Assembly: GCF_900116635.1 (NCBI RefSeq)
Contig: NZ_FPBJ01000003.1
Span: forward strand, 1-64,000
Origin: Xenorhabdus koppenhoeferi
GTDB lineage: Bacteria; Pseudomonadota; Gammaproteobacteria; Enterobacterales; Enterobacteriaceae
Length of the DNA stretch: 64,000 nucleotides
Direction of reading: 5' to 3'
Position numbers and translations under genes: made by a program. This document shows, in pieces, positions 2,726-31,364 of the stretch (positions are counted from its first letter, which is position 1; each line of letters starts with the position of its first letter). Under the pieces are notes generated by a model. The model was not told the DNA's origin, did no database searches, and saw only the letters and a list, made by a program, of their open reading frames with translations.

Positions 2726-2743
2726 TCATTCATAAAATATATA

Positions 2744-4247: not shown

Positions 4248-4292
4248 GAGCTAACTCTGATGATTCCAATGCTCGTTTTCGAGACTCAAACT

Positions 4293-4344: not shown

Positions 4345-4370
4345 CTGTCAATTATCCGGCATTAATTCAT

Positions 4371-5684: not shown

Positions 5685-5704
5685 TAATAAAATTCCTTAT
5701 TGTA

Positions 5705-6661: not shown

Positions 6662-6690
6662 AATATGAATATTCCATGCAGCAACTTGAT

Positions 6691-6712
6691 ATTTGTTATA
6701 TTATAACATCTC
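6691..6712. promoter_or_regulatory. Zur operator between znuA and znuC
   Basis: ATTTGTTATATTATAACATCTC closely matches the enterobacterial Zur box (GAAATGTTATAATATAACA on the opposite strand), with the near-palindrome TGTTATATTATAACA at 6694-6708. It lies in the short divergent znuA/znuC intergenic region. Zinc-bound Zur should repress both transcripts here. Confidence 0.85.
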
Positions 6713-6737
6713 AATGTTTCTGCAAGACACTTTTAAC

Positions 6738-7496: not shown

Positions 7497-8278
7497 TTGA
7501 ATTATTACTTCCCGGCTGGTTAGCCGGTATTTTATTGGCAATTGCCGCAGGGCCTCTTGGTTCTTTTGTCGTCTGGCGCAGAATGTCCTACTTTGGTGAT
7601 ACATTAGCACACGCATCACTACTGGGTATCGCGTTTGGCTTCTTATTGAATGTGAATCCTTTTTATGCCGTTATTGCCGTCACATTGATATTAGCCATTC
7701 TTTTAGTCTGGCTGGAAAAACGTCCTCAGCTGGCAGTTGATACATTGCTGGGCATTCTGGCTCACAGTGCCTTATCTCTGGGTTTAGTTGTTGTCAGTTT
7801 TATGACCAGTGTACGGGTCGATATGATGGCTTATTTATTTGGCGATTTATTGTCTGTCACTTATGAAGATCTCTGGCTGATTGCAACAGGTGTTGCGATT
7901 GTTACCGGATTGCTGACATGGCAATGGCGTGCGCTGTTATCAATGACAGTTAGCCAAGATTTAGCTTTTGTTGATGGGATTAAAATTCAGCGCCTGCGGG
8001 TTCTATTGATGTTAGTGACAGCATTGACCATTGGTCTGGCGATGAAATTTGTCGGGGCGTTGATCATCACTTCCCTACTGATTATCCCGGCTGCCACCGC
8101 ACGCCGATTCTCTCGCACACCAGAACAAATGGCGGTTTTTGCTATTATTGTCGGTATGTTTTCTGTCACGGGAGGGTTAACATTATCCGCATTCTATAAT
8201 ACCCCTGCCGGGCCTTCGGTAGTGCTTTGTGCGGCAATGTTATTTGCGTTGAGTTTAACATGTAAGGCAAGAAGCTGA
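7493..8278 (+). CDS. znuB: zinc ABC transporter permease ZnuB
   Basis: This 261-aa ABC-3 family membrane protein has about seven to eight hydrophobic helices and forms the zinc channel with ZnuC. Family segments include [20 protein letters not shown] near the N-terminus and KFVGALLI-like and [10 protein letters not shown] segments near residue 200. It overlaps znuC by 4 bp, indicating translational coupling under Zur control. A hairpin follows the stop, marking the boundary with the biosynthetic cluster. Confidence 0.95.
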
Positions 8279-8303
8279 TTATTGGTGAAATAAGCTAAAG
8301 ATT

Positions 8304-8340
8304 GACTACCTCCCATCCCATAGGCCGGTAGTCTGTTTTC
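8304..8340. terminator. terminator between convergent znuB and the cluster thioesterase
   Basis: GACTACC (8304-8310) pairs with GGTAGTC (8327-8333), followed by TGTTTTC for znuB. On the other strand the cluster's last gene ends at 8342, so the hairpin may serve both directions. Confidence 0.6.
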
Positions 8341-8341
8341 A

Positions 8342-9082
8342 TCATATGCCCGAAAGTACAGATGCAACAATCTCTATCACTTTTTCTTTATTTTGATCGA
8401 TAAAGAAATGATCTCCTGATACAGCCTGTACCGTTAAGTCTTCACTGGTTAATTCTGACCAAGCATAAAGTTCAATCGGTTTAACATCTGGATCAGCATC
8501 CCCATTTAAAACTGTTATCGGGCTTTTCAGGACAAATCGCTCTGGTTGATAGGTTTCAGCCATTTTGAAATCCGCCCTCAAAACTGGTAGCAAGATATCC
8601 ATCAGTTCGTCATTCAACAATACTTCATCAGTAGTACCATTCATTTTCTGTAATTCACGGATAAACTCATCACGCGGTAAATGATGAGTATAAGGATTAT
8701 TATCTTTCAAATGTGGTGCTGGACACCCTGACGCAAAGAAGTGAGCCGGAGTGGGGTAAGCGCGGGATTGTAACTGACAGGCAAATTCAAATGCCACCCG
8801 ACATCCCAAACTATGACCAATAAAAATATAGGGAGTTTGCGTGATAAAGGTAACATTAACCATTAATTCATTGACCAGCGAATATAAATTTTCATACAGG
8901 GGTTCACCAACCCGAGTTGTCCGTCCCGGCGGCTGCACAGCGACAATTTCAATATCATCATGAAAATAAGTTGCCCAATCATGATAGGTTCTCACTGATC
9001 CTCCTGCATATGGAAAGCAAAAGAGTCTCAGCCTCGGTTTGCTGATCGGTTTGTGTATAATCAACACATTATTATTTTCCAA
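8342..9082 (-). CDS. type II thioesterase (alpha/beta hydrolase)
   Basis: This 246-aa free-standing thioesterase is of the GrsT/SrfA-D type. Those enzymes clear mis-primed or stalled thioesters from carrier proteins and sometimes release products. The N-terminus has LFCFPYAGGSVRTYHDW and the typical PPGR segment. The nucleophile elbow is GHSLG with Ser91, and the likely triad partners are an Asp in GDADPD (196-198) and His225 in GDHFF. It is the last gene of the operon, 65 bp after the C-A-PCP gene. No megasynthase here carries its own TE, so this protein might do the release as well as editing; that is inference. Confidence 0.92.
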   Translation of the reverse strand: MENNNVLIIHKPISKPRLRLFCFPYAGGSVRTYHDWATYFHDDIEIVAVQPPGRTTRVGEPLYENLYSLVNELMVNVTFITQTPYIFIGHSLGCRVAFEFACQLQSRAYPTPAHFFASGCPAPHLKDNNPYTHHLPRDEFIRELQKMNGTTDEVLLNDELMDILLPVLRADFKMAETYQPERFVLKSPITVLNGDADPDVKPIELYAWSELTSEDLTVQAVSGDHFFIDQNKEKVIEIVASVLSGI

Positions 9083-9147
9083 ACTCCACTCCTGTATTCC
9101 TAAAACCGCGTATTGATATGCACCGCGTTATTATGATGCTCATTATG

Positions 9148-12100
9148 TCAATGCAACTGCTGCTCCACTAACGCAATCAAATTTGTCAGAGAGGCTTGCG
9201 GGTAAAAGGCTTTGAGTTTTATCTCAATGGAGAAATGGGCGTTGATTTTCGCCAACAAACGCGCTGCCATCAGAGAATCCCCCCCTAATACAAAAAAATT
9301 ATCCTCCAGAGAAACAACATGGTGATTCAGTATCCCGCTAAAATAGGATAGAACCTGCTCTGCTACTTCAGAATTCAGTTCAAATTCCATATGCGGTTCT
9401 TCAACAGAAGGAACCTGATTCAGCCCTAACGTCAATAATGCAGCAGTGTCAATTTTGTTGTTAATTGTATAGGGAATGGCTTCAATTACCCGCAATTGTG
9501 TTGGGATCATGTAGTTCGGTAATTGGCCCTGCAAATGCTGTTTGACCCTATCAATAAGTTCTCGGTCAGTTCCTGTAAACACTGAAGATACAACCAGATA
9601 ACCACAAAGCCGTTCATGGGGCTGTTTTTCAACTATAACCACAGCTTTATCAATATCCGGTATCTGCTTAATCCATGATTCAATCTCTTCCGGTTCAATT
9701 CGATAACCTCGGAGTTTAAGCTGCTTGTCTTTCCGTCCCAGACACAATAATTTGTTATCTTTGATAAAACAGGCCAAATCCCCTGTTTTATAAAGGCGTT
9801 CTCCATTAATCTTCGAGAATGGATCATCAATAAACGCATCGGCTGTTAAATCGGGACGTTGCCAATACCCTTTAGCCACCCCTTCTCCCCCAATGAACAG
9901 CTCTCCCATCACACCCAGTGGTTGATGACACCCCCGCTCATTAAGGACATACATTCGTGTATTGGCGATAGGCGATCCTATCGGTAACACCCCCTGATGG
10001 CTGTGTATGTCTTCATCCGCGAGACTCAAACGCTCCACGCAGCAACCCACAACAGCCTCCGTCGGGCCGTATTCATTAAAATAGACACTTTCAGGGGCAA
10101 TCATCTTGAGATAATCCAAATGAGCACGACTCATTTGCTCACCACCGACCACAATCACCTTAATATCCAGTGGAGATTGTTTGTGGTTTAAATTAAGTGC
10201 CAAATGTTCCAGTTGTGAAGGTGTAGTTTTCATTAAACCTAATGGCTTATTTAGCTCAAGCAAACGCAATAATGCCTCATCCTGCCTCTCCTGTGATTCA
10301 AAAAGCATCACATGCCCCCGAGTCATCAATGGCAGGAGCAAACTGGTTATGGTGGCATCAAATCCAAAAGACGTGGTTACGGGCACTCCCTGACCGTCTA
10401 AGTCATTCGCACCTGTCGGCATATAAGTTCGTGCGGCCCAGTTAAGATAGTTGTTAAGACCTTTGCGATAAATTTCAACCCCCTTAGGCTTCCCTGTCGT
10501 ACCCGAGGTATAAATCATGTAACAAAGATCGTTTTTTTCCTCAGTACGTTTCCAACGAAATATTGAAGAAATACAGTTAGTATAATTATCACCACTCCCC
10601 GTTTCCCATTCATTTTTCAACTTAACAACAGGGATATTGAAATGTGTGATTGCCTCCAGCAAAGACACATTCTCACCCGCAGCTTTTTCCTCTATCACGA
10701 TGGCATCGGGACAGGCATCCTCAACAATCAGGCACAATCGATTGAGGGGTAAGTCACTATCCACGGGTATCCATATTATTTCTTCGGTCAAGCAGGCGAC
10801 AACCGTCGCTAACGCCAAAGGGCTGGCACTTGAAAAAATCACCACCTTCGCCTGGCGTGATGTATCTGCAATAATATGAGTACGCAATTCATCTGCGATC
10901 TGTTGACTCAAACCATGCAATTTCTCATAGCTGAACCTCTCAGCATGTGATCCCTGCCAATATTCAATCGCCGTTAGCCCGGGTTCATTATTCAATTGTC
11001 GGAAAAAGTGCTGACAAAAATCGTCCTGAAAGACAACATCAGTCTGGTTGAATGCCACAACCTGACGTTGATAATCCACTTCATTCAACAAAGATAGTGC
11101 TGACACCTCTTGATCAACATTAAGCATCATTGCTGTGCATATTTGCTGATAGCTGTCGCTTAATACTTCGGCATAATCGGTCACAACATGTGCGTATTGA
11201 TATTCAAAACATATCTCTACGGTATCCAGATGATTAATCACAAACAGCGTTAATGGGAACTTCCCCCCCACAGGCGTCAATTCATGCTGACGGGCCTGTG
11301 TTCCTGATAATGACCAGTCTCCCTGACCCACAAAATAGTTGTACATCACATTAAATAACGGAGCCTGAGTGATTTGTTGTGCATTGCTGACACTGCGTAC
11401 AATATGGTTGTAAGGAAATTGCTGGTGTTCGATGCCGTTGTAAAGCTGGTGACTAAGCTGAGCGGCGATATTGGCAAACGTGATTTGCGGATGGAAAACG
11501 ATTTTAATCGGTAACACATTAATAAAATAACCTATCGTTTTTTCCAAACGAGGATCATCGCGCAAAGACGTGGGCACACCGAAAACAATAGTTTGCTGGC
11601 CTGTCAGCCGATACAGCAAAGAAGCATATACAGTGAAGTAACCCAGTGCCGGTGAAATGCCCAAAGTAGCGGCACAATGATTAAAAGACGTGACCAAAGA
11701 AGGCGTTAATTGATATCGAACCATCCCCCCTTGCTCATTTTTTGATGGTGCAGGGTTGCCAATAGACAGTTCCAAGCGTCCATCAACCCCCACCAGCTCC
11801 TTCAACCAATAGTCTTCATCATCGTTCAAATATTCACCATTGAGCAATTCATTCTGCCACGCGGCAAATTCAGCGTATTCAAGGCACTCATCACCTGTAT
11901 CTCTGGATAGACTCTCCCCTGCATAGACGGTAGCAATATTATTGAGAATCAATGCCACTGAGTCATTGTCACAAATCAGGTGATGGAGGCAGAAATGCAG
12001 AATATGGCTCTGCTCTCCCAACTTCACCAGAGAGAAACGAGCCAGACCCGGTTGATTCAACGTAAACGGCGTTTCCAAATTTCTTTGACAATGTGCCAAT

Positions 12101-12438
12101 GCCAGTTGCAGCCGATCATGGTCATTCAGTGCGATATCCTGCTCAGATAGATCCACAACAGTAACGGGCAGCTCAATCTCAGGATAAATGTGCTGGACTA
12201 ACCCTTGATCGCTTTCGACAAATGCAGTGCGAAAAGCTTCACTGCTTTGTACCGTCTGCGCAATCGCGTCCAGCAACCTGTTTTGATCCAGTGAGCCTGT
12301 CAATTCGTAGGTTACAGGTACAATGTACAGCTGTTTTTCGGTCAGTTGCTCTGCCAGCCACAAATCTTGCTGACCCGCAGATACCAAGACTTCATCAATC
12401 TCAAAAGCTGCAAATTTTGCGTCTCTTATCTCGCTCAT
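9148..12438 (-). CDS. single-module NRPS, C-A-PCP
   Basis: 1096 aa. The condensation domain (about residues 12-440) has SAGQQDLWLAE and the catalytic HHLICDN (about 152). The adenylation domain (about 470-1000) has intact cores: YTSGTTGKPKGV (about 643-654), NEYGPTEA (about 790), YKTGDL, and NNKIDTAAL with the A10 lysine. The carrier protein has LGGDSL with the phosphopantetheine serine near 1053, and the protein ends soon after, with no TE or reductase. My hand-read specificity code is D-A-T-K-V-G-E-V-G-K. This differs from the classical Asn code (D-L-T-K-L-G-E-V-G-K) at positions 236 and 299, so Asn or an Asn-like residue is predicted. It overlaps the Rieske gene by 4 bp and is probably the terminal module. 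Confidence 0.95.
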   Translation of the reverse strand: MSEIRDAKFAAFEIDEVLVSAGQQDLWLAEQLTEKQLYIVPVTYELTGSLDQNRLLDAIAQTVQSSEAFRTAFVESDQGLVQHIYPEIELPVTVVDLSEQDIALNDHDRLQLALAHCQRNLETPFTLNQPGLARFSLVKLGEQSHILHFCLHHLICDNDSVALILNNIATVYAGESLSRDTGDECLEYAEFAAWQNELLNGEYLNDDEDYWLKELVGVDGRLELSIGNPAPSKNEQGGMVRYQLTPSLVTSFNHCAATLGISPALGYFTVYASLLYRLTGQQTIVFGVPTSLRDDPRLEKTIGYFINVLPIKIVFHPQITFANIAAQLSHQLYNGIEHQQFPYNHIVRSVSNAQQITQAPLFNVMYNYFVGQGDWSLSGTQARQHELTPVGGKFPLTLFVINHLDTVEICFEYQYAHVVTDYAEVLSDSYQQICTAMMLNVDQEVSALSLLNEVDYQRQVVAFNQTDVVFQDDFCQHFFRQLNNEPGLTAIEYWQGSHAERFSYEKLHGLSQQIADELRTHIIADTSRQAKVVIFSSASPLALATVVACLTEEIIWIPVDSDLPLNRLCLIVEDACPDAIVIEEKAAGENVSLLEAITHFNIPVVKLKNEWETGSGDNYTNCISSIFRWKRTEEKNDLCYMIYTSGTTGKPKGVEIYRKGLNNYLNWAARTYMPTGANDLDGQGVPVTTSFGFDATITSLLLPLMTRGHVMLFESQERQDEALLRLLELNKPLGLMKTTPSQLEHLALNLNHKQSPLDIKVIVVGGEQMSRAHLDYLKMIAPESVYFNEYGPTEAVVGCCVERLSLADEDIHSHQGVLPIGSPIANTRMYVLNERGCHQPLGVMGELFIGGEGVAKGYWQRPDLTADAFIDDPFSKINGERLYKTGDLACFIKDNKLLCLGRKDKQLKLRGYRIEPEEIESWIKQIPDIDKAVVIVEKQPHERLCGYLVVSSVFTGTDRELIDRVKQHLQGQLPNYMIPTQLRVIEAIPYTINNKIDTAALLTLGLNQVPSVEEPHMEFELNSEVAEQVLSYFSGILNHHVVSLEDNFFVLGGDSLMAARLLAKINAHFSIEIKLKAFYPQASLTNLIALVEQQLH

Positions 12439-13652
12439 GCCTGATTTACCTCCTTCCCACCTTGACGCAAAATAGCCCCCAAGTTGCGATGTAACTGACC
12501 AATCAGAGATTCTGCTTCACCATAGAGCAAGCTGGGTGCGCTACTGACTTCCAAATTTCTTTGGACTTGTTCAATAGCCTCATAATCCTCTTCCAGGGCT
12601 TCCGCCAGATATTCCACATCCAATTGGCATACCTCACTTATCTCTGCGTCAGTTTTATGAATAAAATTGAATGTCTTAGACCAGGTTTGATTCGCTGACA
12701 CAGGATGATAAAAAGAGACAAAAACATGATAGGGCTGCACCCCTATAATCACATTCGGAAACAGCAAATACGTGGCAACCATTTCCCGGCGAGTTTTATG
12801 TGGTGTTTGCCGACGAACCTGCGCCAAATTTTTCAGTGGGGTCAGAATCCGGCCATGCTGCGCAAAAGAATCCAGCGAGTAGAGCTGACCATTCAGTGTA
12901 GGAGCGAGACTATTCCGGTGTAAGGATTGGACATGATAATATTCGATAAAATTTTCAATCAGTAATTTCCAGTTGGCCCTGACCATCCTTTCACGGCAAT
13001 TCAGCAACTGGTGTTGTTCAAAACCGATAGCAGACATCTGATCTTCAATGTCAGCAAACCAATGTTCCAAAGAAAAACCGTGGTTAGGTTCACCGGGCAT
13101 CTGCCACAACATACTGAATTTTTTCTGGGCAACAATTGAGGTCAACGAACGATATTGCTCGGGTATTTCCGGAAAAGCTTCCTTCCAGCGTGCGGCGATC
13201 AGATTACCCTGATGGCTGAATGACCAACTGTGGTAAGGGCAGATAAAGGCCTTTTTGCACCCTTCGCCATGATGTTCAAGTCTGGCTCCACGGTGTGGGC
13301 AGACATTTTCAAATACAGCACAGCGATCATCATCGACTTTACTCACAATCATGGGAACACGCCCTTGATAATCGACTGTAATAAAGTCACCGATTTTCTC
13401 CAGTGATTGGATAGGTGCTATAAACTGAGGGATCTTTTTCCACAGCGTCTGCTGTTCATTATTAAAATAATTCTGACAAATATAGTGCTTAATTTGGCTC
13501 TCATATATTCCAACCGGTTCAGTCGAAATATACGAGTGACGCTGCTCAATAATATCGATGAAATAATCAGCATAAGGAGAAAATACGTCATTCAGAACAC
13601 TTTCTCCGCCTTCGGGTAATTTGCCTGTCGCATTGATGTTAGTATCACTCAT
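12435..13652 (-). CDS. Rieske non-heme iron oxygenase (CntA-like)
   Basis: 405 aa. The N-terminal Rieske [2Fe-2S] domain has CPHRGARL (Cys118, His120) and CPYHSWSF (Cys138, His141). The catalytic domain has NFIEYYHVQSLH, giving iron ligands His240 and His245 with Asp356 as the likely third. The residue bridging the two iron sites is Glu237 rather than the more common Asp, as in carnitine monooxygenase CntA. It should oxidise a pathway intermediate, but no reductase or ferredoxin gene lies in the operon, so electrons must come from elsewhere. It shares one base with the upstream gene and overlaps the downstream NRPS by 4 bp. The substrate is unknown. Confidence 0.9.
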   Translation of the reverse strand: MSDTNINATGKLPEGGESVLNDVFSPYADYFIDIIEQRHSYISTEPVGIYESQIKHYICQNYFNNEQQTLWKKIPQFIAPIQSLEKIGDFITVDYQGRVPMIVSKVDDDRCAVFENVCPHRGARLEHHGEGCKKAFICPYHSWSFSHQGNLIAARWKEAFPEIPEQYRSLTSIVAQKKFSMLWQMPGEPNHGFSLEHWFADIEDQMSAIGFEQHQLLNCRERMVRANWKLLIENFIEYYHVQSLHRNSLAPTLNGQLYSLDSFAQHGRILTPLKNLAQVRRQTPHKTRREMVATYLLFPNVIIGVQPYHVFVSFYHPVSANQTWSKTFNFIHKTDAEISEVCQLDVEYLAEALEEDYEAIEQVQRNLEVSSAPSLLYGEAESLIGQLHRNLGAILRQGGKEVNQA

Positions 13653-14665
13653 TAAGCATCTCCTTCTACCAAAATAGTATTCGCGAATGTCTGAGATTGG
13701 GTTATATATGTGTTGTAAAAATCAAAATAGCGATAAACAAATTCCAGATTTGGCGTGGCAATATTGACACGTTGACTCAATTCAATAAAGGAAGCCAGTA
13801 AAGTATCGGCTTCTGTCTCTCTGCCATTGATGACATCCAGCACCAAAGAGGAATTAACATCGGGAATTGACAGGAGATACCCTGTGGATTGATGTCGGAA
13901 ATGTTCACTATCTTTGACATATCCGGTTTTTTCACCAATAGCAGTGCATTCATCAATGATCGATTGAATCACTGTTCGGGAACCAATATTACTCATCGCT
14001 GTCTGTACTCCGGTGCGGATTAATCCGCATACAGACGCTGCCGCATTAAGTGTGTTTTTGGCAAAGACCTTATGTATGATATCTTCGCAGTCTTCAAAAG
14101 GTATTCCGGCTTGATTGAGTAAATCCAAAACCGCCAAAATATCAGCTTCTGCCTGTTCGGTGAGTTCAACGCAACCAAGATAACTGGTTTTCAAGAACAT
14201 CACTTTCAGGTTTTGTTTGCCATGCAATACCACTGAAAAATTGAGCACGCCACGGATCACCGTGACACCTAATTTTTCGTCAATAAAGGGCTGTTCTGTG
14301 GCAAAACCATTTTGAAAAATAACAACAGGGCTGCGAAGCCGATATTTATAGCGCGACAATTGCCGACAAATGTACTGATTGGAAACTGTCTTACTACACA
14401 CATACAATTGATCAAAATCTTTTGACAGAAAATCAGCATAGTCAGTGAAATGACCATCAATAATAATACTGTCGGAGTTTTCACTCACGACCTGTCCATG
14501 ATTTTCATTATCACTGAGTAGTATTTGACGAATTTGGCGGATAGGATGTGCCTGATTTCTGATACCCCGTGAAGATAATAAGAAAACCTGACACCCTTGT
14601 TTTTTACATTGATAAGCTAAATAACATGCAACGGCCCCTGTACCGATAATGCCTATCCTGAGCAT
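13652..14665 (-). CDS. ketopantoate reductase-like (ApbA/PanE family) oxidoreductase
   Basis: 337 aa. The N-terminal Rossmann fold has GIIGTGAVACYLA (residues 5-17). The C-terminal helical domain has the catalytic Lys203 and Asn207 (KNTLNAAASV) and the GRETEAD segment with the conserved acidic residue (about Glu285). Family members reduce alpha-keto acids to alpha-hydroxy acids with NADPH. Placed inside a natural-product operon, it more likely reduces a pathway keto acid than supplies pantoate. It sits between the MFS gene (1-bp gap) and the Rieske gene (1-bp overlap), so it belongs to the same transcript. Confidence 0.88.
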   Translation of the reverse strand: MLRIGIIGTGAVACYLAYQCKKQGCQVFLLSSRGIRNQAHPIRQIRQILLSDNENHGQVVSENSDSIIIDGHFTDYADFLSKDFDQLYVCSKTVSNQYICRQLSRYKYRLRSPVVIFQNGFATEQPFIDEKLGVTVIRGVLNFSVVLHGKQNLKVMFLKTSYLGCVELTEQAEADILAVLDLLNQAGIPFEDCEDIIHKVFAKNTLNAAASVCGLIRTGVQTAMSNIGSRTVIQSIIDECTAIGEKTGYVKDSEHFRHQSTGYLLSIPDVNSSLVLDVINGRETEADTLLASFIELSQRVNIATPNLEFVYRYFDFYNTYITQSQTFANTILVEGDA

Positions 14666-14666
14666 C

Positions 14667-15917
14667 TTATTTCCCCCCTATAGCTAATAACAATTTTCTT
14701 GTCGTAATAAGCAAGGGAGGTAATATCAGTAGGGTGATCCCAATAAAATAAAGATCCATCGGGTTATTCTGCCCCCAAATCGCCCATCCTCCCTCTTGAG
14801 CCAGCAAAATTTCCAAAACAATCCCAGTGATAAGATAAATAATAAAACTACTGAATGTCTTCACCAAATTACGCAGGGCAAAAACGCGGCCATGATATAT
14901 TTTCGGCACAACGGTCTGCCATAATGTTTGCATTTTGATAATGCTTATCCGCATTGTGATAAAACTGAGTGCAATACAAATACCGGAAATATAAACATTT
15001 TTTATCTGCGTCAATACCACAAAACCAATCGCAAACAGAAACTCCAGCCACAATAACGGCATATGCTTCAATATCCCGGGCTGCCAGGCCGATATCAAGC
15101 TGACAATCACCATAGATACCCCACCGATAGACATCATGTAACCCGCGTCTGCGACAGAAAAATAGGTTGTGAAATAAGGAACAATGGTGATTAATGTCCC
15201 CCCAACCAAAATGCCTTTAAATAAAGTGTACGCGATCATATAGGTCATTTCTGGTGATGCCTTAACCAATCGGACACATCCCATATCAGGAAAGATGATT
15301 TTCCAGTTCAATTTAGATAATGTGCCATTATCGGACGGCAGAAACTGCACAGCACTTATCCTGAACAACAGTCCTGCGGCAAATGCGCTGACCATAAAGG
15401 TGAGAAGATCAACCGTCAGCACGATGCCTAACCCATAGTGAGAAAACAGAAACGCACCAACAACCGGAGCCAACATTTGTGGCAATGAATCGCTGAGACT
15501 GCCCAACGCATTTGCACGGTTTAATGAAGATTGCGGTACCAGCCGATAGACCAGCGTGCTGTAACAATCAATCTGTAACGCTGTCAGTACACTGGTCAGA
15601 GCGATGTAAAGATAAACCACGATGGTATTGATGTAACCAAAGTAATTGAACAAAAGCACAATTGCCAGAGCCAGGCCCGCAATACCTTCCGTCAGTAATA
15701 ACACTTTGCGTTTATCGTAATGATCAATCACATAGCCTACTAACGGCATCAGTAAAAAGGCCGGAAGCACCAAGACTAAATACATATTCGTATAAGCCAT
15801 GACTGACATTTGTTCCTCAAGCAGCCATAACCCGAACGCAAATTCCGTCAGCTCACTGCCAAAAATCGATACGGCTATGCCAATCCAAAGCGGATAGAAT
15901 CCATGTACACCCTTCAT
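14667..15917 (-). CDS. MFS exporter of the biosynthetic cluster
   Basis: A 416-aa major facilitator protein with about twelve hydrophobic segments and the MFS loop motif GYVIDHYDKRKVLLLTEG between helices 2 and 3. It resembles the DHA3/EntS-type group that exports peptide natural products and siderophores. The start ATG overlaps the stop of the preceding megasynthase by 4 bp. It is inferred to export, and give self-protection from, the product; no other resistance gene is evident in the operon. Confidence 0.88.
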   Translation of the reverse strand: MKGVHGFYPLWIGIAVSIFGSELTEFAFGLWLLEEQMSVMAYTNMYLVLVLPAFLLMPLVGYVIDHYDKRKVLLLTEGIAGLALAIVLLFNYFGYINTIVVYLYIALTSVLTALQIDCYSTLVYRLVPQSSLNRANALGSLSDSLPQMLAPVVGAFLFSHYGLGIVLTVDLLTFMVSAFAAGLLFRISAVQFLPSDNGTLSKLNWKIIFPDMGCVRLVKASPEMTYMIAYTLFKGILVGGTLITIVPYFTTYFSVADAGYMMSIGGVSMVIVSLISAWQPGILKHMPLLWLEFLFAIGFVVLTQIKNVYISGICIALSFITMRISIIKMQTLWQTVVPKIYHGRVFALRNLVKTFSSFIIYLITGIVLEILLAQEGGWAIWGQNNPMDLYFIGITLLILPPLLITTRKLLLAIGGK

Positions 15918-21592: not shown

Positions 21593-21596
21593 TACA

Positions 21597-24500
21597 TTAC
21601 ATTCCCTTCATAATTTCTGATTGGGCTTGGAAAATCGCGTTCATACAGTCAATTTGTTGCTGCATAATGGCGAGAGGCTCACGAGCAGTCGGGTTTAAAT
21701 GATCATCAGGTTGTTGTGGCTGTAGCTGGTATTTTAATCTGCTTGATGGCAATACAGCAGCTTCAGTGAACCAATAATCGTCTGTCAGTAATGTTCTGGC
21801 CGGCAATAGCGCCGGCTTGAACGTAAACGGTACATACATTGTCAACCAATCTCTTGGTGAACCCGATAAATGCTCACTCGCCAACAACGCGACCAAATCG
21901 TCATAATTGAGCTGCTGGCTTGTTGAGGAGGAGCAATATGCTGAAGCAAAGCGATGTTGCGGAGCTTCATCAAGCAATGTGCCCAGCATACTTTTAGGGC
22001 CAATCTCAATTATTTTCAGCCCTGTCATGGCGGTTAATTTCTCTAGATTACTGCGGAACAGTACTCGTCCTAACATATGCTGTTGCCAATATTCAATTGT
22101 GGCGAAACAGTCTGTTTCCGGCTGGCCCGTCAGATTGGATAAAATAGGTATCTCTGCCACCTGAAGAGGAATCCCTGCGAGAAACTGACCAAATTCCTGA
22201 GCCGCGTTGTTCATCATGGGAGAATGGAATGCCCGATTGGTATTGATAAAGCGAACATGGAAACCAGATTGTTCCAGTTGCTGCTGAAAATGCTCAAGCG
22301 CACTACGCGGGCCACTAATAATTGTATTAGTTTCACTGTTTTCGGCTGCAATAGTCAGATCACTGAGCCATTCTGTTGCAATAAACCCACTAACTTGCTC
22401 CGCCGAGCCGTTCACCATCATCATGGCACCTCGGGGATCGCTCATTTCCATCAGTTGAGCTCGTTTAATGATGATCCTCAACCCTTCCTTCAGTGAAAAT
22501 ACATTAGCGACACAAGCGGCGACATACTCACCAAGACTATGACCAAGCAGAATATCGACACGCCCGATAGCAGGACGCAAACATTGGTACAAGGCATATT
22601 CGAAAGCAAACAAAATTACCTGAGCAAACTCGGTACGGTGGATTGTTTGTTCATCCACTGAGTCCGTCAGGAGTTTTTTTACTTCCACTTTAACTTGACC
22701 GGTTTCATGGGCAATTTCAGAACACAATTGGTCAATGTGATCAAGCCAGCGTGCAAATGGCATATGATGACGATACAACTGTTCCGCCATTGCTACCGAT
22801 TGAGTTCCCTGTCCGGCAAAAACCAACGCCAGTGTTGTCGCCGGATTTTCACTGGCTTCACTGGCACGATAGCCAATAACTTCTCCTCTGGCCATTGCCG
22901 ATAGCTGCTCAATCAATTGTTCAGCACTATTGACACCCAACGTACAAACAACCGGTAACACCGTACGCTGCGCCAGCGCCTGACAAAAGTGTGTCAGTAC
23001 AAATTGTTGCTGTCTCACCTGCTGCTGCACATGAACCAATAAACCAGCGGCTACAGCCTGCAAATGCGCTTGATCGCATCCACTCAAAACACAAGGCAAC
23101 GTTTCATCTGTTTGTTCTGTACTTATTTTCTCTGTATGAGAAAGACCATCATAAGGAAGCACGTTTCTATTTTCACTTTTAATGACAACATGTGCTCCAG
23201 TGCCACCCATACCAAAAGCACTGACAGCCAAACACGTTTTTTCAGCACTCAATGGCTGCCTAATCGTCGGGATTTCCAGTTGGCCTTCAGTCAACGAGAT
23301 CCGAGGATTAAGCTGCTTAAATGTGGCTACTGGCGGCGCTATTCTGTACTTATCAATTAGCAGTAATTTGATCAATCCGGTTATACCTGCTGCGGCTTCA
23401 AGGTGACCGATATTGGCTTTGACCGCGCCGAGATAACAGGGATTCTTCATTTTTTCGTCACGAAAACAGGCGCTAATCCCAGACAGTTCGATAGGATCAC
23501 CCAAGCGCGTGCCGGTGCCATGTGTTTCGATATAAGCGATATCACTCGCCTTTATACCTGCATTCGCCCAACACTGCTCCAGCAATCTTTGCTGGGAAAG
23601 CGGGTCTGGTGCCGTTATACCGTTACTGCGGCCACCATGATAAACTTCGGAAGCCAACAGAGTTGCTTTGACATCATTTCGATCACGAATAGCCAGATCA
23701 TGACGTTTAAGGATCACCACTCCAGCACCCTCCCCCAAAACCGTTCCGTTCGCCTCGGCATCAAAAGGGCGGCATATCCCATCACAGGATAATACTTCCA
23801 ATTGATGCATTTCCCTGAAATGGGCCATATCCAATTGCAGATGTACACCTCCTACAATGGCCGTATCACACTCACCTCTTTCAATACTCAGACGCGCCTG
23901 GTGCAATGCCACCAATGATGATGAACACAATGTATCGACAATTAACGAAGGCCCCCTTAAATCCAGGAAATACGACAATCGATTGGCGCACACACTATTC
24001 TGATTGTTGATTGCGCTGCTTGGATAACCTTTTTCCCCTGTCTCGGTTTGATAATCATGCAACAATTGCCGATAACCATTTTGGCTGATGCCGATAAATA
24101 CACCTGTTCGGCTTGCTTTCAAATCATTCAGGCTCAGGTTGGCATGTTCAATAGCCTCCCATGCCACCATCAACAATAATCTGTGCTGAGGATCCATCAA
24201 TCGGGCATCCTTCGGGTTGATTTGAAAGAAGCTATGATTGAATTGGCTGATACCGTCACAAAATGCCCCGCTTAATGGGATGCCTTCAGCGGCAAACTCC
24301 GCCAGCAACGGAGCCATAAAGGAGCGTTCTTCTGGACAACGATCAAACATGTTTTTTCCGGCGAGTAAGTTTTCCCATAGCTGTTCACCGTTTTCTGCGC
24401 CGGGAAAACGTCCGGCATAGCCAATAATGGCAATATCTGCATGATATTTTCCCAAAGGCAACTGGCCGACGGGATCCGCAAGATCAGAAACATTTTCTGC

Positions 24501-26540
24501 CATTCGCAGCCCGAGCTTTTGCCAAAGCTGATGGATTGATGAACTGGAAAACAACTCAATTTCTGTAACGGGTTGACCGAAAAACTGGCTTAGGCTCTCT
24601 GCCAATTGAACTATCGTCAATGAATTGTAGCCAAAGTCGAATAAAGATCGTTGGGCATCATCATCTGACCATTTTTGGTCTCTGATCTGGCTAATAATGT
24701 GAACGAAGGTTTCCCAGCTAAGGGATTCTGTCGGCAGAATGTCCTGAGATAACACTGACGAAATAAGATGATTTGCTGAAATTTTCAGAAATGAGTGACA
24801 TGCCGGATTAACGTGGAAAGGTATCCCGGTATCATATAGCGCACTCATTACAACATGATAATTTTCGCGTACAGTACGCTGTGATACCTTAAATGACGGA
24901 GTAACTTCTCCCTTTTCCATAGACAATGGTGTTTCGGTCAGTGCAACTGCAACCAACTTATGGGAGGCTTCCGTCATCTGATGATTATGTTGTTGCAATA
25001 CCTGCAAGACATGTTCCTGCAAACGTGACGAATGCTGAAATTCACACTCCTCATTGAACCGCTGACGGCGAAGTTCAGGATTGATAAACAATAATGCAGT
25101 GGCGTATGGGCGTTGTTCAATTTCAACAATGACGTGACTGATAATATCCGTCTTTTCAAACAGGCTCTGTTCAATCACATCGCAAGAAACCTTTTCACCA
25201 TTGGACAATTTTTTGACTGAATCCAACCGCCCCAAGAGTACCAGTTCTCCCTGGATTATTTTGCCGAGATCGCCCGTTCTGAACCATTGTTGTTTGAAGC
25301 TGCGCTGAGTCGCGGCTTCATCCGCATAATAACCCAGCATAATATTCGGCCCTTTTGCCAGAATTTCCCCGGTGTCTTCATCAATGCGGAGAGTGACATC
25401 CGGTAAAGGATAGCCTACGCTGTTGGTAACCCGGCAGTTTTCCCCCGTAAGCGTCAAACACGGGCTTGTTTCCGTCAGCCCCCATCCTTCAACAACCTGA
25501 ATATCACAAAGGTTGAAATAATCTTCAACCTCCGCAGGCAATTTGGATGCAGCCGAAAAAATCATTTGCAATGAAGGAACCACTGCGCGGTAAAAATCGG
25601 CGGACTGTTTCATTTTATTGGCAACCACCGTCAGTATTTTAGGCACACTAAAAAATCGAGTGGGTTTCAACTGACTCAGATTACTGCACAATTGAGCAAC
25701 ATCCATACCCCGGCTGTTATCAATATGCAGCACCGCCTGACTAAACAGGGCCGTGTATTTTTCAAATAATCCGCCAAAACTATGATGCCACGGTAGATAA
25801 CTGAGAAAAGACTGCGGGCCATCAAAATGCCATAATGTTTCTAAAGCGCGTTGCTGTGAAAGAATATTGGCCTGACTCAGCAGCACACCTTTGGGCTTTC
25901 CACTGGAGCCTGAAGTAAACATTAAACAGAACGCTTGTTCAGCCTGAGCTGCCTGCAAATCTGTCACAAGCAAGTTGATTAACCCAGCCTCCATTCCTTC
26001 ATGGCTGACCGCTGTCTCCAGAGTAGATTGACAGGTGTCACTATCAACGGTGGCAAAATCAGTAAAAACGTCGGAAACCTCCAAGGTTATAACATTCCAT
26101 AAAGGATGTTGCGGTAAGGATTGAGCCTGATCGGCGGTTTCTGTAATAACCACAACGGGTTCTGACAACGACAGGCAATAATCAATCATTTCCGCCGAAT
26201 AATTAGCATACAGTGGCGTATAAATCGCGCCTTTAATCTGACAGGCAAGTTCAATCGCTAATAATTCCCAGCGATTCTGTGAAATTGTCACCACCCGTTG
26301 ACCACGAACAACCTTCAGTTCGCATAAACAGCGATAAACATGAACAATGCTGCGCAGTAATTGGCGCCAACTTAACTGACGCCCAGCCTGCATATCGTGA
26401 AACCGGATGGAATCAACATTATTGAGTGCTTTTTTCAGTAATACCAAAATAAGAATATTATCTGTGTCAAGCCCCCGAAGACAGGTTTGCCATTGCTCAA
26501 CAAAGCGATCATTTCCTGTATTTTTATCTTTTTTAAGCAT
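21597..26540 (-). CDS. hybrid starter/PKS: acyl-AMP ligase - ACP - KS - AT
   Basis: 1647 aa. The N-terminal acyl-AMP ligase (about 30-570) resembles long-chain fatty-acid CoA ligases: FTSGSSGKPKGV (about 207-218), LPWHHSFGGL, FRTGDLG and LGRLDSVKKLSNGEKVS. An ACP follows with FGYNSL (Ser640, with Asn replacing the usual Asp of DSL). The ketosynthase (about 700-1120) has all three catalytic residues: Cys in DTLCSSS (about 872), HGTGT, and NIGH. The acyltransferase (about 1240-1540) has GHSLGEY and RAFHS, which points to malonyl. There is no KR, DH or ER, so the beta-keto group should survive for the aminotransferase of the next protein, four bases downstream. It ends in a short Gln-rich helical tail that may dock with that ACP. 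Confidence 0.95.
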   Translation of the reverse strand: MLKKDKNTGNDRFVEQWQTCLRGLDTDNILILVLLKKALNNVDSIRFHDMQAGRQLSWRQLLRSIVHVYRCLCELKVVRGQRVVTISQNRWELLAIELACQIKGAIYTPLYANYSAEMIDYCLSLSEPVVVITETADQAQSLPQHPLWNVITLEVSDVFTDFATVDSDTCQSTLETAVSHEGMEAGLINLLVTDLQAAQAEQAFCLMFTSGSSGKPKGVLLSQANILSQQRALETLWHFDGPQSFLSYLPWHHSFGGLFEKYTALFSQAVLHIDNSRGMDVAQLCSNLSQLKPTRFFSVPKILTVVANKMKQSADFYRAVVPSLQMIFSAASKLPAEVEDYFNLCDIQVVEGWGLTETSPCLTLTGENCRVTNSVGYPLPDVTLRIDEDTGEILAKGPNIMLGYYADEAATQRSFKQQWFRTGDLGKIIQGELVLLGRLDSVKKLSNGEKVSCDVIEQSLFEKTDIISHVIVEIEQRPYATALLFINPELRRQRFNEECEFQHSSRLQEHVLQVLQQHNHQMTEASHKLVAVALTETPLSMEKGEVTPSFKVSQRTVRENYHVVMSALYDTGIPFHVNPACHSFLKISANHLISSVLSQDILPTESLSWETFVHIISQIRDQKWSDDDAQRSLFDFGYNSLTIVQLAESLSQFFGQPVTEIELFSSSSIHQLWQKLGLRMAENVSDLADPVGQLPLGKYHADIAIIGYAGRFPGAENGEQLWENLLAGKNMFDRCPEERSFMAPLLAEFAAEGIPLSGAFCDGISQFNHSFFQINPKDARLMDPQHRLLLMVAWEAIEHANLSLNDLKASRTGVFIGISQNGYRQLLHDYQTETGEKGYPSSAINNQNSVCANRLSYFLDLRGPSLIVDTLCSSSLVALHQARLSIERGECDTAIVGGVHLQLDMAHFREMHQLEVLSCDGICRPFDAEANGTVLGEGAGVVILKRHDLAIRDRNDVKATLLASEVYHGGRSNGITAPDPLSQQRLLEQCWANAGIKASDIAYIETHGTGTRLGDPIELSGISACFRDEKMKNPCYLGAVKANIGHLEAAAGITGLIKLLLIDKYRIAPPVATFKQLNPRISLTEGQLEIPTIRQPLSAEKTCLAVSAFGMGGTGAHVVIKSENRNVLPYDGLSHTEKISTEQTDETLPCVLSGCDQAHLQAVAAGLLVHVQQQVRQQQFVLTHFCQALAQRTVLPVVCTLGVNSAEQLIEQLSAMARGEVIGYRASEASENPATTLALVFAGQGTQSVAMAEQLYRHHMPFARWLDHIDQLCSEIAHETGQVKVEVKKLLTDSVDEQTIHRTEFAQVILFAFEYALYQCLRPAIGRVDILLGHSLGEYVAACVANVFSLKEGLRIIIKRAQLMEMSDPRGAMMMVNGSAEQVSGFIATEWLSDLTIAAENSETNTIISGPRSALEHFQQQLEQSGFHVRFINTNRAFHSPMMNNAAQEFGQFLAGIPLQVAEIPILSNLTGQPETDCFATIEYWQQHMLGRVLFRSNLEKLTAMTGLKIIEIGPKSMLGTLLDEAPQHRFASAYCSSSTSQQLNYDDLVALLASEHLSGSPRDWLTMYVPFTFKPALLPARTLLTDDYWFTEAAVLPSSRLKYQLQPQQPDDHLNPTAREPLAIMQQQIDCMNAIFQAQSEIMKGM

Positions 26541-26583
26541 TGCATTAAACCAAATAAAAAGAATTAAACAAATACATTACTAT

Positions 26584-27546
26584 TTAAGGCAATACATTAA
26601 TGCGACCGGGTAACATCATATGTTTGAAATCACGTAATCTTGTTAATATTTGAGTGCGTTTCAACCAGCGATCAGTGCCATCATATTTAGGTTGATACGC
26701 CTTGCGGCCGTGAGCACAGCGGTAATTATCAATAAAAGCAATTTCTCCGGGACTTAAGACCAAATCAAATACGGTCGCCTCAGTTAAGGTTTCCAATTCG
26801 TTCACAGCCTCACGCTCTTCATTATTCAAGGCATCTTTATCCAGATAAAGTGGGTCATAACGCATATGGATATGATTGCCACTGCCCGTAAGAATGGGAC
26901 AAATGGTATAATTTTCATCGCGCTCTTCTTTCGACAGACAAGGTCTATCATTAAAAATACGGAATTTATTTTTTTTGAGGATAGTGACGGTTTTCTCACT
27001 AAGTTTGGAAAAATTGGGTACTGATACACAGGTCGGAATACGATAATTGTTGCGGATACACATAAAACCAAGATAATCCGCACGATAATCCAACGAAGTA
27101 TCTTCAGTGTGTAATAATAAATTTACCGCACCAGTACCCAATTGTTTATTGGCATCCTGTTTGATGGGGAATATTTCCTGAACCAACTTACCTTCTTGTA
27201 AGTCAGAAAAACCAACCACATCACCACATAAGCTCGACATCAAACAACAATAATAATCATAGTGGCTATTCGTATTGTAAACATCCTTCCAATGATTTGG
27301 TGTTGCACCCATTGTCTCTGACATATCAGGGTACCCCTTGATGATCACCAAAGGATAATCCTGATAACGGAATTTCTTTAATTCAATGCGCAATCGAGCG
27401 GGTAAGGACTCTACCCATTCTGGCAAAACACTGACAAAATCGTGATCATCGGTAGAGTGATAACGTGCTTGCAGTTTCCCGATAAGTGACTGAATCTCAT
27501 CCACTTCTGATATTGATAATTCAATTGAATATACAAATGGGTTCAT
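26584..27546 (-). CDS. clavaminate synthase-like Fe(II)/2-oxoglutarate amino acid hydroxylase
   Basis: 320 aa. The iron site is visible as His146-x-Glu148 (LLLHTEDTSLDYRADYLG) and His279 (DNYRCAHGRKAY), with Arg293 placed to bind 2-oxoglutarate. The HxE form and the flanking YLGFMCIRN segment are typical of the AsnO/VioC subgroup of the TauD superfamily. Known members beta-hydroxylate free L-Asn, L-Arg or L-Lys for incorporation by NRPSs. It lies between the aminotransferase (25 bp) and the first megasynthase (43 bp). Substrate is inferred to be a basic or amide amino acid; the downstream Asn-like adenylation domain makes beta-hydroxy-Asn one possibility. Confidence 0.9.
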   Translation of the reverse strand: MNPFVYSIELSISEVDEIQSLIGKLQARYHSTDDHDFVSVLPEWVESLPARLRIELKKFRYQDYPLVIIKGYPDMSETMGATPNHWKDVYNTNSHYDYYCCLMSSLCGDVVGFSDLQEGKLVQEIFPIKQDANKQLGTGAVNLLLHTEDTSLDYRADYLGFMCIRNNYRIPTCVSVPNFSKLSEKTVTILKKNKFRIFNDRPCLSKEERDENYTICPILTGSGNHIHMRYDPLYLDKDALNNEEREAVNELETLTEATVFDLVLSPGEIAFIDNYRCAHGRKAYQPKYDGTDRWLKRTQILTRLRDFKHMMLPGRINVLP

Positions 27547-27571
27547 TGTTATTAATCCTCATTGCCATAAA

Positions 27572-28741
27572 TTACCGTAATGCAGCCGCGATCCTTTCGA
27601 ATCCCCGTTCAATTGCCTCCATCGACGCAGCAAAAGAAATACGTAGATGTCCATGATAAAGACAGGCTTCTGAGGGGATCAGAGCAACCCCGGCCTGAGT
27701 AAGCAGGTATTCACATAATTGAGTGGTGTTTCGACAACGTTCATCAAGGTATTTTTCGACATTTGGGAATAGATAAAATGCACCATTGGGTCGCTCACAT
27801 TCAAAAAGTTCTCGAGCATACTGGTATGATAAATCCCGTCGTTGTTTAAGTAGTTCTAACCGTTCTTGATATAAATCTGCCGGCATTTCAAGTGCTGCAA
27901 TAGCACCGTACTGAGAAAAAGTGCAAACATTATCCGTCATATGGCCGTGCAAATCAGATATCCGGCTGATTAATTCAGGATGAGCAACCGCATAGCCAAC
28001 ACGGTATCCCGTCATAGCAAAACTTTTGGAAAATGTTTGTACCGTTATAATGTATTCGTTATCGTCAATTGCAGCTAAGCTATGATGCTCAGTATCAAAT
28101 ACAATTTGTTCATAAGCTTCATCAGATAACACGAAAATCTGTTTTCCTTTGACAGATTGACACAATTTCTGCAATGCTGATTTCGAGTAAACAGCTCCAG
28201 TTGGATTATTCGGTGTATTGACAATAATTAGTTTTGTTTTGTCCGTTATTGCCTGTTCAATTTTTTCTACATTCAGATCCACACCAATATTTTCAATTAA
28301 AATCGCTTTCCCACCAGCTAATTTTACAGCTTCAAAATATGTGGCCCAACAAGGAACAGGAATAATTACCTCATCACCAGAATTAATTAATGAATGGATT
28401 ATCTCATAAATAACTTGCTTTGATCCATTAGTGACAATAATATTTTCAGGCGTTGCTTTTATTTTATTATCTTCTAATATTTTTCGGCAAATTTCCTCTT
28501 TTAATCTTGGTTCACCATTAAGCCAACTATAACGGGTTTTACCTTCAAGTAATGCACGAATAGTTTCATTTATAATTGTAGTATCCGTACTAAAATCTAG
28601 CTCACCTTCATTTAACCCAATAATATCATGGCCTTCATTTTTTAATTTAGTGACAATATCAGCCAGCCCTACAGTGACTGAAGCATTAATATTTTTTGAT
28701 CTATCCGAAATACGCGATAAGAAATTTCTATCGTTTATCAT
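27572..28741 (-). CDS. class I (AspC-like, fold type I) aminotransferase
   Basis: 389 aa, the usual length for class I-gamma aspartate-type aminotransferases. It has NTPNNPTGAVYS (substrate/PLP contacts), LSDEAYEQIVF, and the PLP lysine Lys239 in TFSKSFAMTGYRVGY. A conserved arginine near the C-terminus (HLRISFAAS) should bind the substrate carboxylate. It is the second gene of the operon, between the aminomutase and the hydroxylase. It may transaminate a precursor amino or keto acid. In capreomycidine and streptolidine pathways a PLP enzyme partners a VioC-type hydroxylase, but this protein looks like an ordinary aminotransferase rather than VioD. Confidence 0.9.
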   Translation of the reverse strand: MINDRNFLSRISDRSKNINASVTVGLADIVTKLKNEGHDIIGLNEGELDFSTDTTIINETIRALLEGKTRYSWLNGEPRLKEEICRKILEDNKIKATPENIIVTNGSKQVIYEIIHSLINSGDEVIIPVPCWATYFEAVKLAGGKAILIENIGVDLNVEKIEQAITDKTKLIIVNTPNNPTGAVYSKSALQKLCQSVKGKQIFVLSDEAYEQIVFDTEHHSLAAIDDNEYIITVQTFSKSFAMTGYRVGYAVAHPELISRISDLHGHMTDNVCTFSQYGAIAALEMPADLYQERLELLKQRRDLSYQYARELFECERPNGAFYLFPNVEKYLDERCRNTTQLCEYLLTQAGVALIPSEACLYHGHLRISFAASMEAIERGFERIAAALR

Positions 28742-28773
28742 TATAAATATCTCTGTTTATCAAAATGTGAATA

Positions 28774-29952
28774 CTACTCGATATTTTTAGAGGGAATTAT
28801 TTTTTCATTATTATGCTTATCAGCTAAGTGGTCAAATACGGAAGGAGGTTTGATATATTCGGTAATATCTAAATTTTCTTTTTTATAATTCCTAGCAATA
28901 ATATTACCATCTTCGTGAGCAGTGATATATTCCCGATTAACAGCCAATTTACCTAATGTCGTTGTCACAACATATTGCGGTACACTAAAACCAGTTTCAA
29001 AACCTATCATCGCATCCATAATTTCCTTCCCTTTCTCCAGGGTCGTCATGAAATGGGAAACACCTGATACGTTATCGCAATGATATAAATAATAAGGACG
29101 AACCCTGATTCTCAAAAGTGCCTTAAGCAAGGATCGCATTGTTTCCACATCATCATTGATGCCTTTTAACAAAACAGACTGATTCTGTACTGGGATACCA
29201 TGCCGTAGCAACCGATCACAGGCCCTGGCCGCTTCTTTAGTAACTTCTTTAGGATGATTGAAATGTGTATTCAGCCAGATTGGATGATATTTTTCCAGCA
29301 TCTGGCAAAATTTTTCTGTTATTCGCTGGGGAGCAAATACGGGATAACGGGTTCCAATACGGATGATATTAATATGACTGATACTTCTCAACCGTTTAAT
29401 AATAGCTTCAAGAAATTTATCATAATGAATTAGAGGATCACCACCCGTAAGGAGAACATCGTCAATTTCGGGATGACTCTCAATATAAGCGAAATCTTCT
29501 TCATATGATGCGGCGAGATCTGAACCAAAATAGGTGCCATTAACATCTGTTGTATGAAACTTACGTGTACAATGCCGACAATAAACAGGACAAGTATCGG
29601 AAACCAGTAAAACAATTCTGTTTGGGTATTTATGGATAACTCTGGCTGTCTTAAGATTAGAAGTATCCCCTACCGGATCATTATCAGAGTTTACCTCGGT
29701 TCTCATTTCACTTAAATGAGGAATTGTTTGTAATCGAATTGGACAATTAGCATCATACTTATCCATCAGAGATGCATAATAAGGTGTACTCTGCCATAAG
29801 TACTTTCCTTTAACAGCTTCAATGGCTTTCTTTTCATCATCCGTTAACTCAATCCATTTTTCTAAACCTTCAGACGTTTTAATTAAGTTACGCAACTGAA
29901 ATTTAGGATCATTCCACTCCTCATGACTGAACGATTCTTTACTTAAAAACAT
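28774..29952 (-). CDS. lysine 2,3-aminomutase-like radical SAM enzyme
   Basis: 392 aa from ATG 29952, preceded by GAGGAAGATGAT. An in-frame GTG at 30021 would add 23 residues but lacks a ribosome-binding site, and the shorter form aligns end to end with clostridial lysine 2,3-aminomutase. The [4Fe-4S] motif is Cys121-x3-Cys125-x2-Cys128, followed by the carboxylate-binding Arg130. Asp293 is kept at the site that binds the lysine side-chain amine, but the second Asp (330 in the clostridial enzyme) is Thr330 here. The PLP lysine is probably Lys335 (LGK). It should make a beta-amino acid; Lys, Arg or another substrate is open. It is the first gene of the operon. Confidence 0.9.
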   Translation of the reverse strand: MFLSKESFSHEEWNDPKFQLRNLIKTSEGLEKWIELTDDEKKAIEAVKGKYLWQSTPYYASLMDKYDANCPIRLQTIPHLSEMRTEVNSDNDPVGDTSNLKTARVIHKYPNRIVLLVSDTCPVYCRHCTRKFHTTDVNGTYFGSDLAASYEEDFAYIESHPEIDDVLLTGGDPLIHYDKFLEAIIKRLRSISHINIIRIGTRYPVFAPQRITEKFCQMLEKYHPIWLNTHFNHPKEVTKEAARACDRLLRHGIPVQNQSVLLKGINDDVETMRSLLKALLRIRVRPYYLYHCDNVSGVSHFMTTLEKGKEIMDAMIGFETGFSVPQYVVTTTLGKLAVNREYITAHEDGNIIARNYKKENLDITEYIKPPSVFDHLADKHNNEKIIPSKNIE

Positions 29953-30086: not shown

Positions 30087-30115
30087 GTTATAATGGTAAA
30101 AAATAATAATGTAAA
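30087..30115 (-). promoter_or_regulatory. candidate sigma70 promoter of the biosynthetic operon
   Basis: On the minus strand TTTACA (30115-30110), a 17-bp spacer and TATAAC (30092-30087) form a good -35/-10 pair, about 130 bp upstream of the aminomutase ATG. The surrounding 30022-30342 gap is very AT-rich and holds no other gene. No operator was recognised. Confidence 0.4.
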
Positions 30116-31350: not shown

Positions 31351-31364
31351 CACTTAACTCCTGC

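Follow-up and report, generated by a model that had tools for sequence, protein, structure and literature searches.

The first 64,000 nucleotides of contig NZ_FPBJ01000003.1 of Xenorhabdus koppenhoeferi (assembly GCF_900116635.1), referred to here as the window, contain an operon for a hybrid nonribosomal peptide synthetase (NRPS) and polyketide synthase (PKS). The operon occupies 8342-29952 on the minus strand between znuB (7493-8278) and ruvB (30343-31353), and consists of ten intact, tightly packed open reading frames (ORFs) without internal stops. Table 1 lists the genes, whose protein families were assigned by Pfam and NCBIfam scans. The megasynthases are built of acyl-ligase (AL), acyl carrier protein (ACP), ketosynthase (KS), acyltransferase (AT), class III aminotransferase (AMT), condensation (C), adenylation (A) and peptidyl carrier protein (PCP) domains. 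They are accompanied by a radical S-adenosylmethionine (SAM) aminomutase, a pyridoxal phosphate (PLP) enzyme, a 2-oxoglutarate (2OG) oxygenase, a PanE-like oxidoreductase, a Rieske oxygenase, a free thioesterase and a major facilitator superfamily (MFS) protein. The original prediction, made from the letters of the window, had described a tightly packed minus-strand operon with this list of megasynthases and tailoring enzymes, and both the ORFs and the Pfam domains agree with it. It had also placed the operon end at 29952, and the most likely start codon of the first gene is indeed the ATG at 29950-29952, behind a GAGGAAG that is kept in all six aligned upstream regions, in preference to a GTG ORF reaching 30021. 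No reductase partner for the Rieske oxygenase was found among the ten operon genes, and Rfam at gathering thresholds returned one tRNA in the window and nothing within the operon. As argued below, the locus is probably a functional Xenorhabdus NRPS/PKS operon, under Lrp activation in X. nematophila, and its product would be a short beta-aminoacyl dipeptide containing an arginine modified by a dedicated gene cassette.

Table 1. Genes, domains and putative promoter of the operon, with window positions
Feature	Position	Strand	Evidence
Probable sigma-70-type promoter of operon: TTTACA, 17-base spacer, TATAAC	30087..30115	-	alignment of six carriers at site
Arginine 2,3-aminomutase (BlsG type), radical SAM CxxxCxxC	28774..29952	-	TIGR04468, motif
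Class I/II PLP enzyme, aspartate-aminotransferase-like	27572..28741	-	PF00155
Fe(II)/2OG oxygenase, VioC/OrfP family, TauD-type	26584..27546	-	PF02668
AL-ACP-KS-AT polyketide synthase	21597..26540	-	Pfam and motifs
AL domain, starter loading (predicted)	24831..26414	-	PF00501, weakly PF23562, residues 43-570
ACP 1	24525..24662	-	PF00550 residues 627-672; GYNSL
KS	23319..24437	-	PF00109/PF02801 residues 702-1074; Cys and two His motifs
AT	21963..22823	-	PF00698 residues 1240-1526; GHSLGEY, RAFH
ACP-AMT-C-A-PCP synthetase (module 1)	15914..21592	-	Pfam and motifs
AMT domain	19550..20611	-	PF00202 residues 328-681; PLP lysine in TYGKVIGGG
Condensation domain 1 (C1)	18047..19324	-	PF00668; HHTIVDG
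Adenylation domain 1 (A1), arginine-type code DIEDLGAITK	16349..17935	-	pocket-code reading
PCP 1	16046..16204	-	PF00550 residues 1797-1849; LGGDSL
MFS exporter (predicted)	14667..15917	-	PF07690; TIGR00900 112.5 bits, below cut-off
PanE/ApbA-like (ketopantoate-reductase-type) oxidoreductase	13652..14665	-	PF02558/PF08546
Rieske oxygenase terminal component	12435..13652	-	PF00355/PF00848; CxH-CxxH and iron-site motif
C-A-PCP synthetase (module 2)	9148..12438	-	Pfam and motifs
Adenylation domain 2 (A2), asparagine-type code DATKVGEVGK	9454..11007	-	pocket-code reading
Stand-alone thioesterase, type-II-like	8342..9082	-	PF00975 160 bits; GHSLG

The serines of both ACP and both PCP domains are present, as are the HTE motif of the 2OG enzyme and CPVYCRHC of the radical SAM enzyme. 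In the pathway that we infer from domains and gene order, the AL domain would load a carboxylic acid onto ACP 1 and the KS-AT pair would extend this starter once with malonate; the xAFH motif is that of malonyl-specific acyltransferase domains. The AMT domain would then turn the beta-keto group on the second ACP into a beta-amine, C1-A1-PCP would add an arginine-type residue, and C2-A2-PCP would add an asparagine-type residue. The aminomutase, the VioC-like 2OG enzyme and the aspartate-aminotransferase-like enzyme would make a modified arginine, most likely via beta-arginine, which A1 would load. The free thioesterase may edit or release the chain, there being no thioesterase domain in the final module. 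The Rieske and PanE-like enzymes would account for later oxidation and reduction steps, and the MFS protein would export the product. These chemical steps, the A and AL substrates, the module order, release and export are all predictions from sequence. A beta-amino-acyl peptide with about two residues and oxidative tailoring had been predicted for the locus; its logic is supported, while the peptide itself stays a prediction.

To read the adenylation codes, we used pocket positions that we take to be those of GrsA. The A1 and A2 codes were identical in all 12 clusters compared. Read likewise, other synthetases in these genomes give recognisable codes, among them DFWNIGMVHK and, in a region that we take to be PAX, DTSDIGSVIK. 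The A2 code has eight of ten positions in common with DLTKIGEVGK of a synthetase in another genome of the genus (G012), which by its position is presumably XcnA, the asparagine-loading enzyme of xenocoumacin synthesis. The A1 code was compared with the main arginine code cluster given in PMC12283262 (D, A/V, E, D, I/V/L, G, A, V/I, T/D, K), and fits nine of ten positions, the exception being position 236.

The beginning of the assembly line resembles that of the iturin family. BamA of bacillomycin D has the same AL-ACP-KS and ACP-AMT-C-A-PCP order, and its chemistry gives a beta-amino fatty acyl start; the AMT lysine is intact in the window. The module 1 synthetase is collinear with BamA (30% over 1091 aa), and the KS part of the PKS matches it at 37% over 506 aa. 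A hybrid associated with a fatty acyl-AMP ligase in Planktothrix agardhii (NZ_LR882964) is likewise collinear, over the whole run of domains between KS and PCP, at 35% over 923 aa for the KS-AT part of the PKS and 29% over 1908 aa for the module 1 synthetase. These collinearities therefore support a beta-aminoacyl start. Unlike BamA, the line in the window is split over two proteins, has its AT in cis and a divergent AL, and goes with two amino acid modules and an arginine cassette. The iturin line makes a seven-residue cyclic peptide and ends in a terminal thioesterase domain, whereas Pfam found no thioesterase domain in the two amino acid modules of the window. The Planktothrix hybrid differs in its stand-alone fatty acyl-AMP ligase and ACP and its longer peptide line, and no arginine cassette is annotated in the stretch compared.

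The first three genes (aminomutase, PLP enzyme and 2OG oxygenase) make up a separate cassette. This cassette and the arginine-type A1 code had been overlooked in the original prediction, which named a radical SAM aminomutase correctly by family but missed that it is of the arginine 2,3-aminomutase type (TIGR04468). The enzyme scores 656.5 bits with that model and passes the cut-off of 600. Across the phylum, 190 of 398 genomes have a match to TIGR04468, and the only one above the cut-off (1/398) is the genome of the window, the other 189 of the 190 lying below, as do the matches in 8 of 14 controls. BlsG of blasticidin S biosynthesis belongs to the same family, and the window enzyme is 56% identical to a Kitasatospora BlsG and 64% to an Azospirillum protein. 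Genes of the cytosylglucuronate and nucleoside pathway of blasticidin S were absent from the families of the ten operon proteins. According to PMC8473136, the Pbo cluster of P. syringae pv. phaseolicola also has an aminomutase beside NRPS/PKS genes, and PMC3639832 names it an arginine aminomutase. The published table in PMC8473136 sets Pbo apart, with an Ido-like 2OG enzyme and neither a class I aminotransferase nor a Rieske gene, and we put it aside as a relative, since by that description it seems to have only the aminomutase in common with the window.

Searches for further cassettes yielded little. At 1e-120, a match was found in one of 369 genomes of the class, the one studied here, and a search of genome contigs, with patterns suited to close relatives, gave eight loci, all in Xenorhabdus. 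Among plasmids, the aminomutase matched 138 records; the matches listed include X. bovienii (87%), Azospirillum (64.5%), Kitasatospora (57.5%) and Embleya (56.1%), and the remaining 16 of the best 20 records are at most 49% identical. The 2OG enzyme matched 105 plasmid records, with X. bovienii at 85% and then, at 48.9%, p5 of Azospirillum argentinense; below these two, the best 30 include no match above 33%, and the remaining 75 are all below 60%. Forty records of Klebsiella plasmids match the VioC-like 2OG oxygenase at below 60% identity.

The best solved relatives of the 2OG enzyme are L-arginine hydroxylase chains (E 2e-43), which we take to be VioC, and CmnC is among its PDB matches. It belongs to the family of viomycin VioC and streptothricin OrfP, and retains the iron ligands His-x-Glu and the equivalent of VioC D268. 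In the VioC numbering and contact roles that we assume, D268 lies on the guanidine side of the substrate, and Q137 and S224 on the amino-acid side. Q137 is replaced with Leu and S224 with Pro in the window, in four aligned relatives and in Azospirillum, and the lid is shorter than in the VioC/OrfP-type enzyme. The Streptomyces globosus enzyme, 33% identical to that of the window, retains both contacts. It is annotated vioC and its partner vioD; from their streptothricin-like context we treat the pair as probable OrfP and OrfR. Loss of the VioC D270 equivalent was rejected as informative, since the S. globosus enzyme also lacks it. With the guanidine end of the VioC site retained and the amino-acid end altered, the sequence of the 2OG enzyme suggests beta-arginine as a fitting substrate, and the cassette as a whole would yield an arginine-derived residue not described before.

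The same three genes are adjacent on plasmid p5 of Azospirillum argentinense (NZ_CP032326), where the 2OG enzyme, aminomutase and PLP enzyme match those of the window at 49%, 64% and 43% and lie near KS, ACP-AMT and C-A-PCP genes. This line differs from the window in that its KS is fused to neither an AL nor an AT, one of its A enzymes stands alone and its A codes are different, and it has features of its own in an AurF-type diiron oxygenase, a methyltransferase and a MATE exporter. The plasmid is typed conjugative, and one protein of the locus (2353-19849) is weakly like a tRNA_SAD domain, below the cut-off.

That such an operon is expressed is indicated by published work on X. nematophila. 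XNC1_2152-2162 was recorded in 2017 as Lrp-activated with the product 'Unknown' (PMC5313471). Its gene order and annotations in Table 2 of that paper match the window, with a counterpart for each of the ten genes; it differs in one extra hypothetical gene (2152) and in a thioesterase annotated as a fragment. All 11 genes were higher in the wild type than in the lrp mutant, and the fold change fell, with one small reversal, from 29.5 at the aminomutase to 2.5 at the thioesterase (PMC5313471), which therefore suggests one transcript starting at the aminomutase. FliZ is also given there, from another study, as an activator of these clusters. The putative promoter has TTTACA in five of six and TATAAN in five of six aligned sequences, from an alignment that took only the six carriers with the operon at the ruvB-znuB site; the Shine-Dalgarno sequence is also kept in these six. 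When the ten genes were compared with those of G012, G027 and G004, all 30 dN/dS ratios lay at 0.039-0.157, indicating purifying selection; the ratios were 0.018-0.020 for ruvB against two of these genomes, although dS reached 1.94 and the ratios are rough. The ten proteins encoded in G012 are 81-92% identical to those of the window.

Several observations weigh against the pathway proposed here. The best match of the AL domain among solved structures is remote (84.6 bits), and its match to the AL of BamA is weak (25% over 323 aa), so that a fatty acid starter is not secured. The C2 motif reads HHLICDN, with the final Gly of the usual HHxxxDG changed, and the order of the modules was taken from that of the genes. 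The putative XcnA has DPENIGHVDK as its second code, where arginine would be expected, and this code has only four positions in common with A1. The A codes of the Azospirillum line, DLFFLCLIAK and DLWQVCMVYK, include no acidic arginine-type code; because the cassette adjoins them, its product need not be loaded by an arginine-type domain. Finally, XNC1_2152, a hypothetical gene that precedes the aminomutase, changed only 3.67-fold (PMC5313471), and we identified no counterpart of it in the window. For the AL domain and the PLP enzyme, AlphaFold models based on nine closely related sequences apiece were unusable (mean pLDDT 40.1 and 38.2).

Some of these points fit an arrangement in which A1 loads plain L-arginine and the cassette makes an arginine-derived acid that is either loaded by the AL domain as starter or attached later. 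The AL domain is not close to the fatty acyl ligases of the lines compared, the Azospirillum cassette likewise accompanies KS and ACP-AMT genes, and the A1 code is near ordinary arginine codes. However, the stand-alone adenylating enzyme of Azospirillum carries an amino-acid-type annotation and lacks an acidic code, and the AL domain of the window scores highest with general acyl-CoA ligase models (NCBIfam). We consider this arrangement unlikely but deserving of serious attention.

For loading of the modified arginine by A1, as we prefer, a specific route can be put forward tentatively, with a modest chance of being right in this form. The aminomutase would convert L-arginine to beta-arginine, the 2OG enzyme would oxidize C2 to give 2-oxo-beta-arginine, and transamination would give 2,3-diamino-5-guanidinopentanoate (beta-aminoarginine), which A1 would load between the beta-amino fatty acyl group and asparagine; the same cassette would serve a different line in Azospirillum. 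The C2 oxidation may take two rounds of the 2OG enzyme, or a single round that the PanE-like enzyme then completes. A quite improbable alternative follows VioC/VioD (OrfP/OrfR, GntD/GntC) logic, in which L-arginine would first be hydroxylated by the 2OG enzyme and then cyclised by the PLP enzyme to capreomycidine, enduracididine or a streptolidine precursor for loading by A1, and the aminomutase would supply a separate beta-arginine. The arginine-type A1 pocket, the closeness of the 2OG enzyme to arginine hydroxylases including CmnC, and the 277.2 bits of the PLP enzyme with the GntC model would suit it. That score nevertheless fails the cut-off of 415, and the 2OG enzyme fails those of the VioC (217.5 against 418.6) and GntD (259.3 against 345) models, with two putative VioC contacts changed. 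The nearest solved relative of the PLP enzyme is 1j32, of the aspartate-aminotransferase type (277 bits), as against 90 bits for 8fft, which is GntC (PMC10367076); it aligns poorly with the vioD-annotated S. globosus enzyme (24% identity), and no VioD/OrfR-type cyclase was found. OrfR, VioD and GntC have in common a cyclase Glu and a Ser-Ser pair (PMC10367076). The S. globosus enzyme shows these residues, but they were not found in the PLP enzyme of the window, whose N-terminal part aligned loosely. For want of them, cyclisation to capreomycidine or enduracididine was dropped as the leading interpretation.

It is also rather doubtful that the compound has been described before under some name not linked to these genes. 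The literature that we searched excludes most subscription papers, all patents, and supplements, which leaves room for such a name. Within that scope no later product was found for the cluster, the locus tags searched turned up in one paper, PMC5313471, and no product emerged when Xenorhabdus was paired with capreomycidine, enduracididine, aminomutase or blasticidin, or from a query on beta-arginine. The parts covered of PMC9177418, a survey of Xenorhabdus and Photorhabdus clusters, do not name it. Cabanillasin and nemaucin, the latter close to fabclavine, carry four amino-guanidino-butane units as far as PMC6305712 describes them; these units do not fit the operon, and both compounds were dropped as candidates. 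In the original prediction, no named pathway with this whole set had been recognised. Our searches likewise found no characterised pathway, but the X. nematophila cluster has been on record as an orphan with measured transcripts (PMC5313471), and the cluster is thus not wholly new.

Within Xenorhabdus, the operon is widespread. An aminomutase search at 1e-60 found it in 11 of 99 genomes including that of the window, all of them among the 30 genus species genomes (11/30, against 0/69 others), and the ten other carriers (10 of 29) have all ten genes in the same order (10/10; matches below 30% of query length were omitted). ruvB and znuB flank the operon in six of the 11 carriers, the window included; in G026 only the znuB side is seen, the contig beginning just before the aminomutase; and four carriers have neither gene within the stretches compared. 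In 15 of the 19 genus genomes without the cluster, znuB lies within 1.5 kb of ruvB; this is not so in a further three, and the last, G021, has pieces of a thioesterase at that place. Because the two genes are adjacent in 15 of these 19, the operon is an insertion between them, as had been proposed. In the four genomes with the operon elsewhere, znuB is again within 1.5 kb of ruvB in three and not in G006. The X. bovienii CS03 megaplasmid carries the operon (10024-37804 of its locus) between transposase genes of IS6 and IS1, the IS6 gene adjoining that of the thioesterase, and this copy is a likely vehicle. In an unrooted tree of nine proteins (6750 columns, with the thioesterase left out and gapped columns removed), the plasmid copy and the four copies located elsewhere form one group with local support 1.000. 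It seems that the operon has been gained, moved and lost over time. The pieces in G021 (3420-4006, where the locus ends) lie beside ruvB with no aminomutase match, a possible scar of a lost operon, and thus loss seems to happen; that the operon of the window is itself a relict or silent is nonetheless highly improbable, given its intact ORFs and motifs, purifying selection and the transcripts in X. nematophila (PMC5313471). The cluster is apparently mobile, and real and maintained.

Two further features were noted. At 59005-61014 (+), the window encodes a GDSL-lipase autotransporter (PF00657 and PF03797) beside a stretch of low G+C content (0.373 at 58001-60000). The genome is 3.18 Mb, compared with 3.6-5.3 Mb in the other listed genus genomes of at least 90% completeness, yet it has 29 condensation-domain matches.

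Antibiotics are actively sourced from Xenorhabdus. This cluster, which 11 of 30 genus species genomes carry and for which no product was found, has an unusually readable logic of a starter, two residues and a three-enzyme arginine cassette. If the cassette acts via beta-arginine, it would represent a way to a building block that differs from those leading to capreomycidine and enduracididine, and one that has been used more than once, since the cassette recurs on an Azospirillum plasmid.

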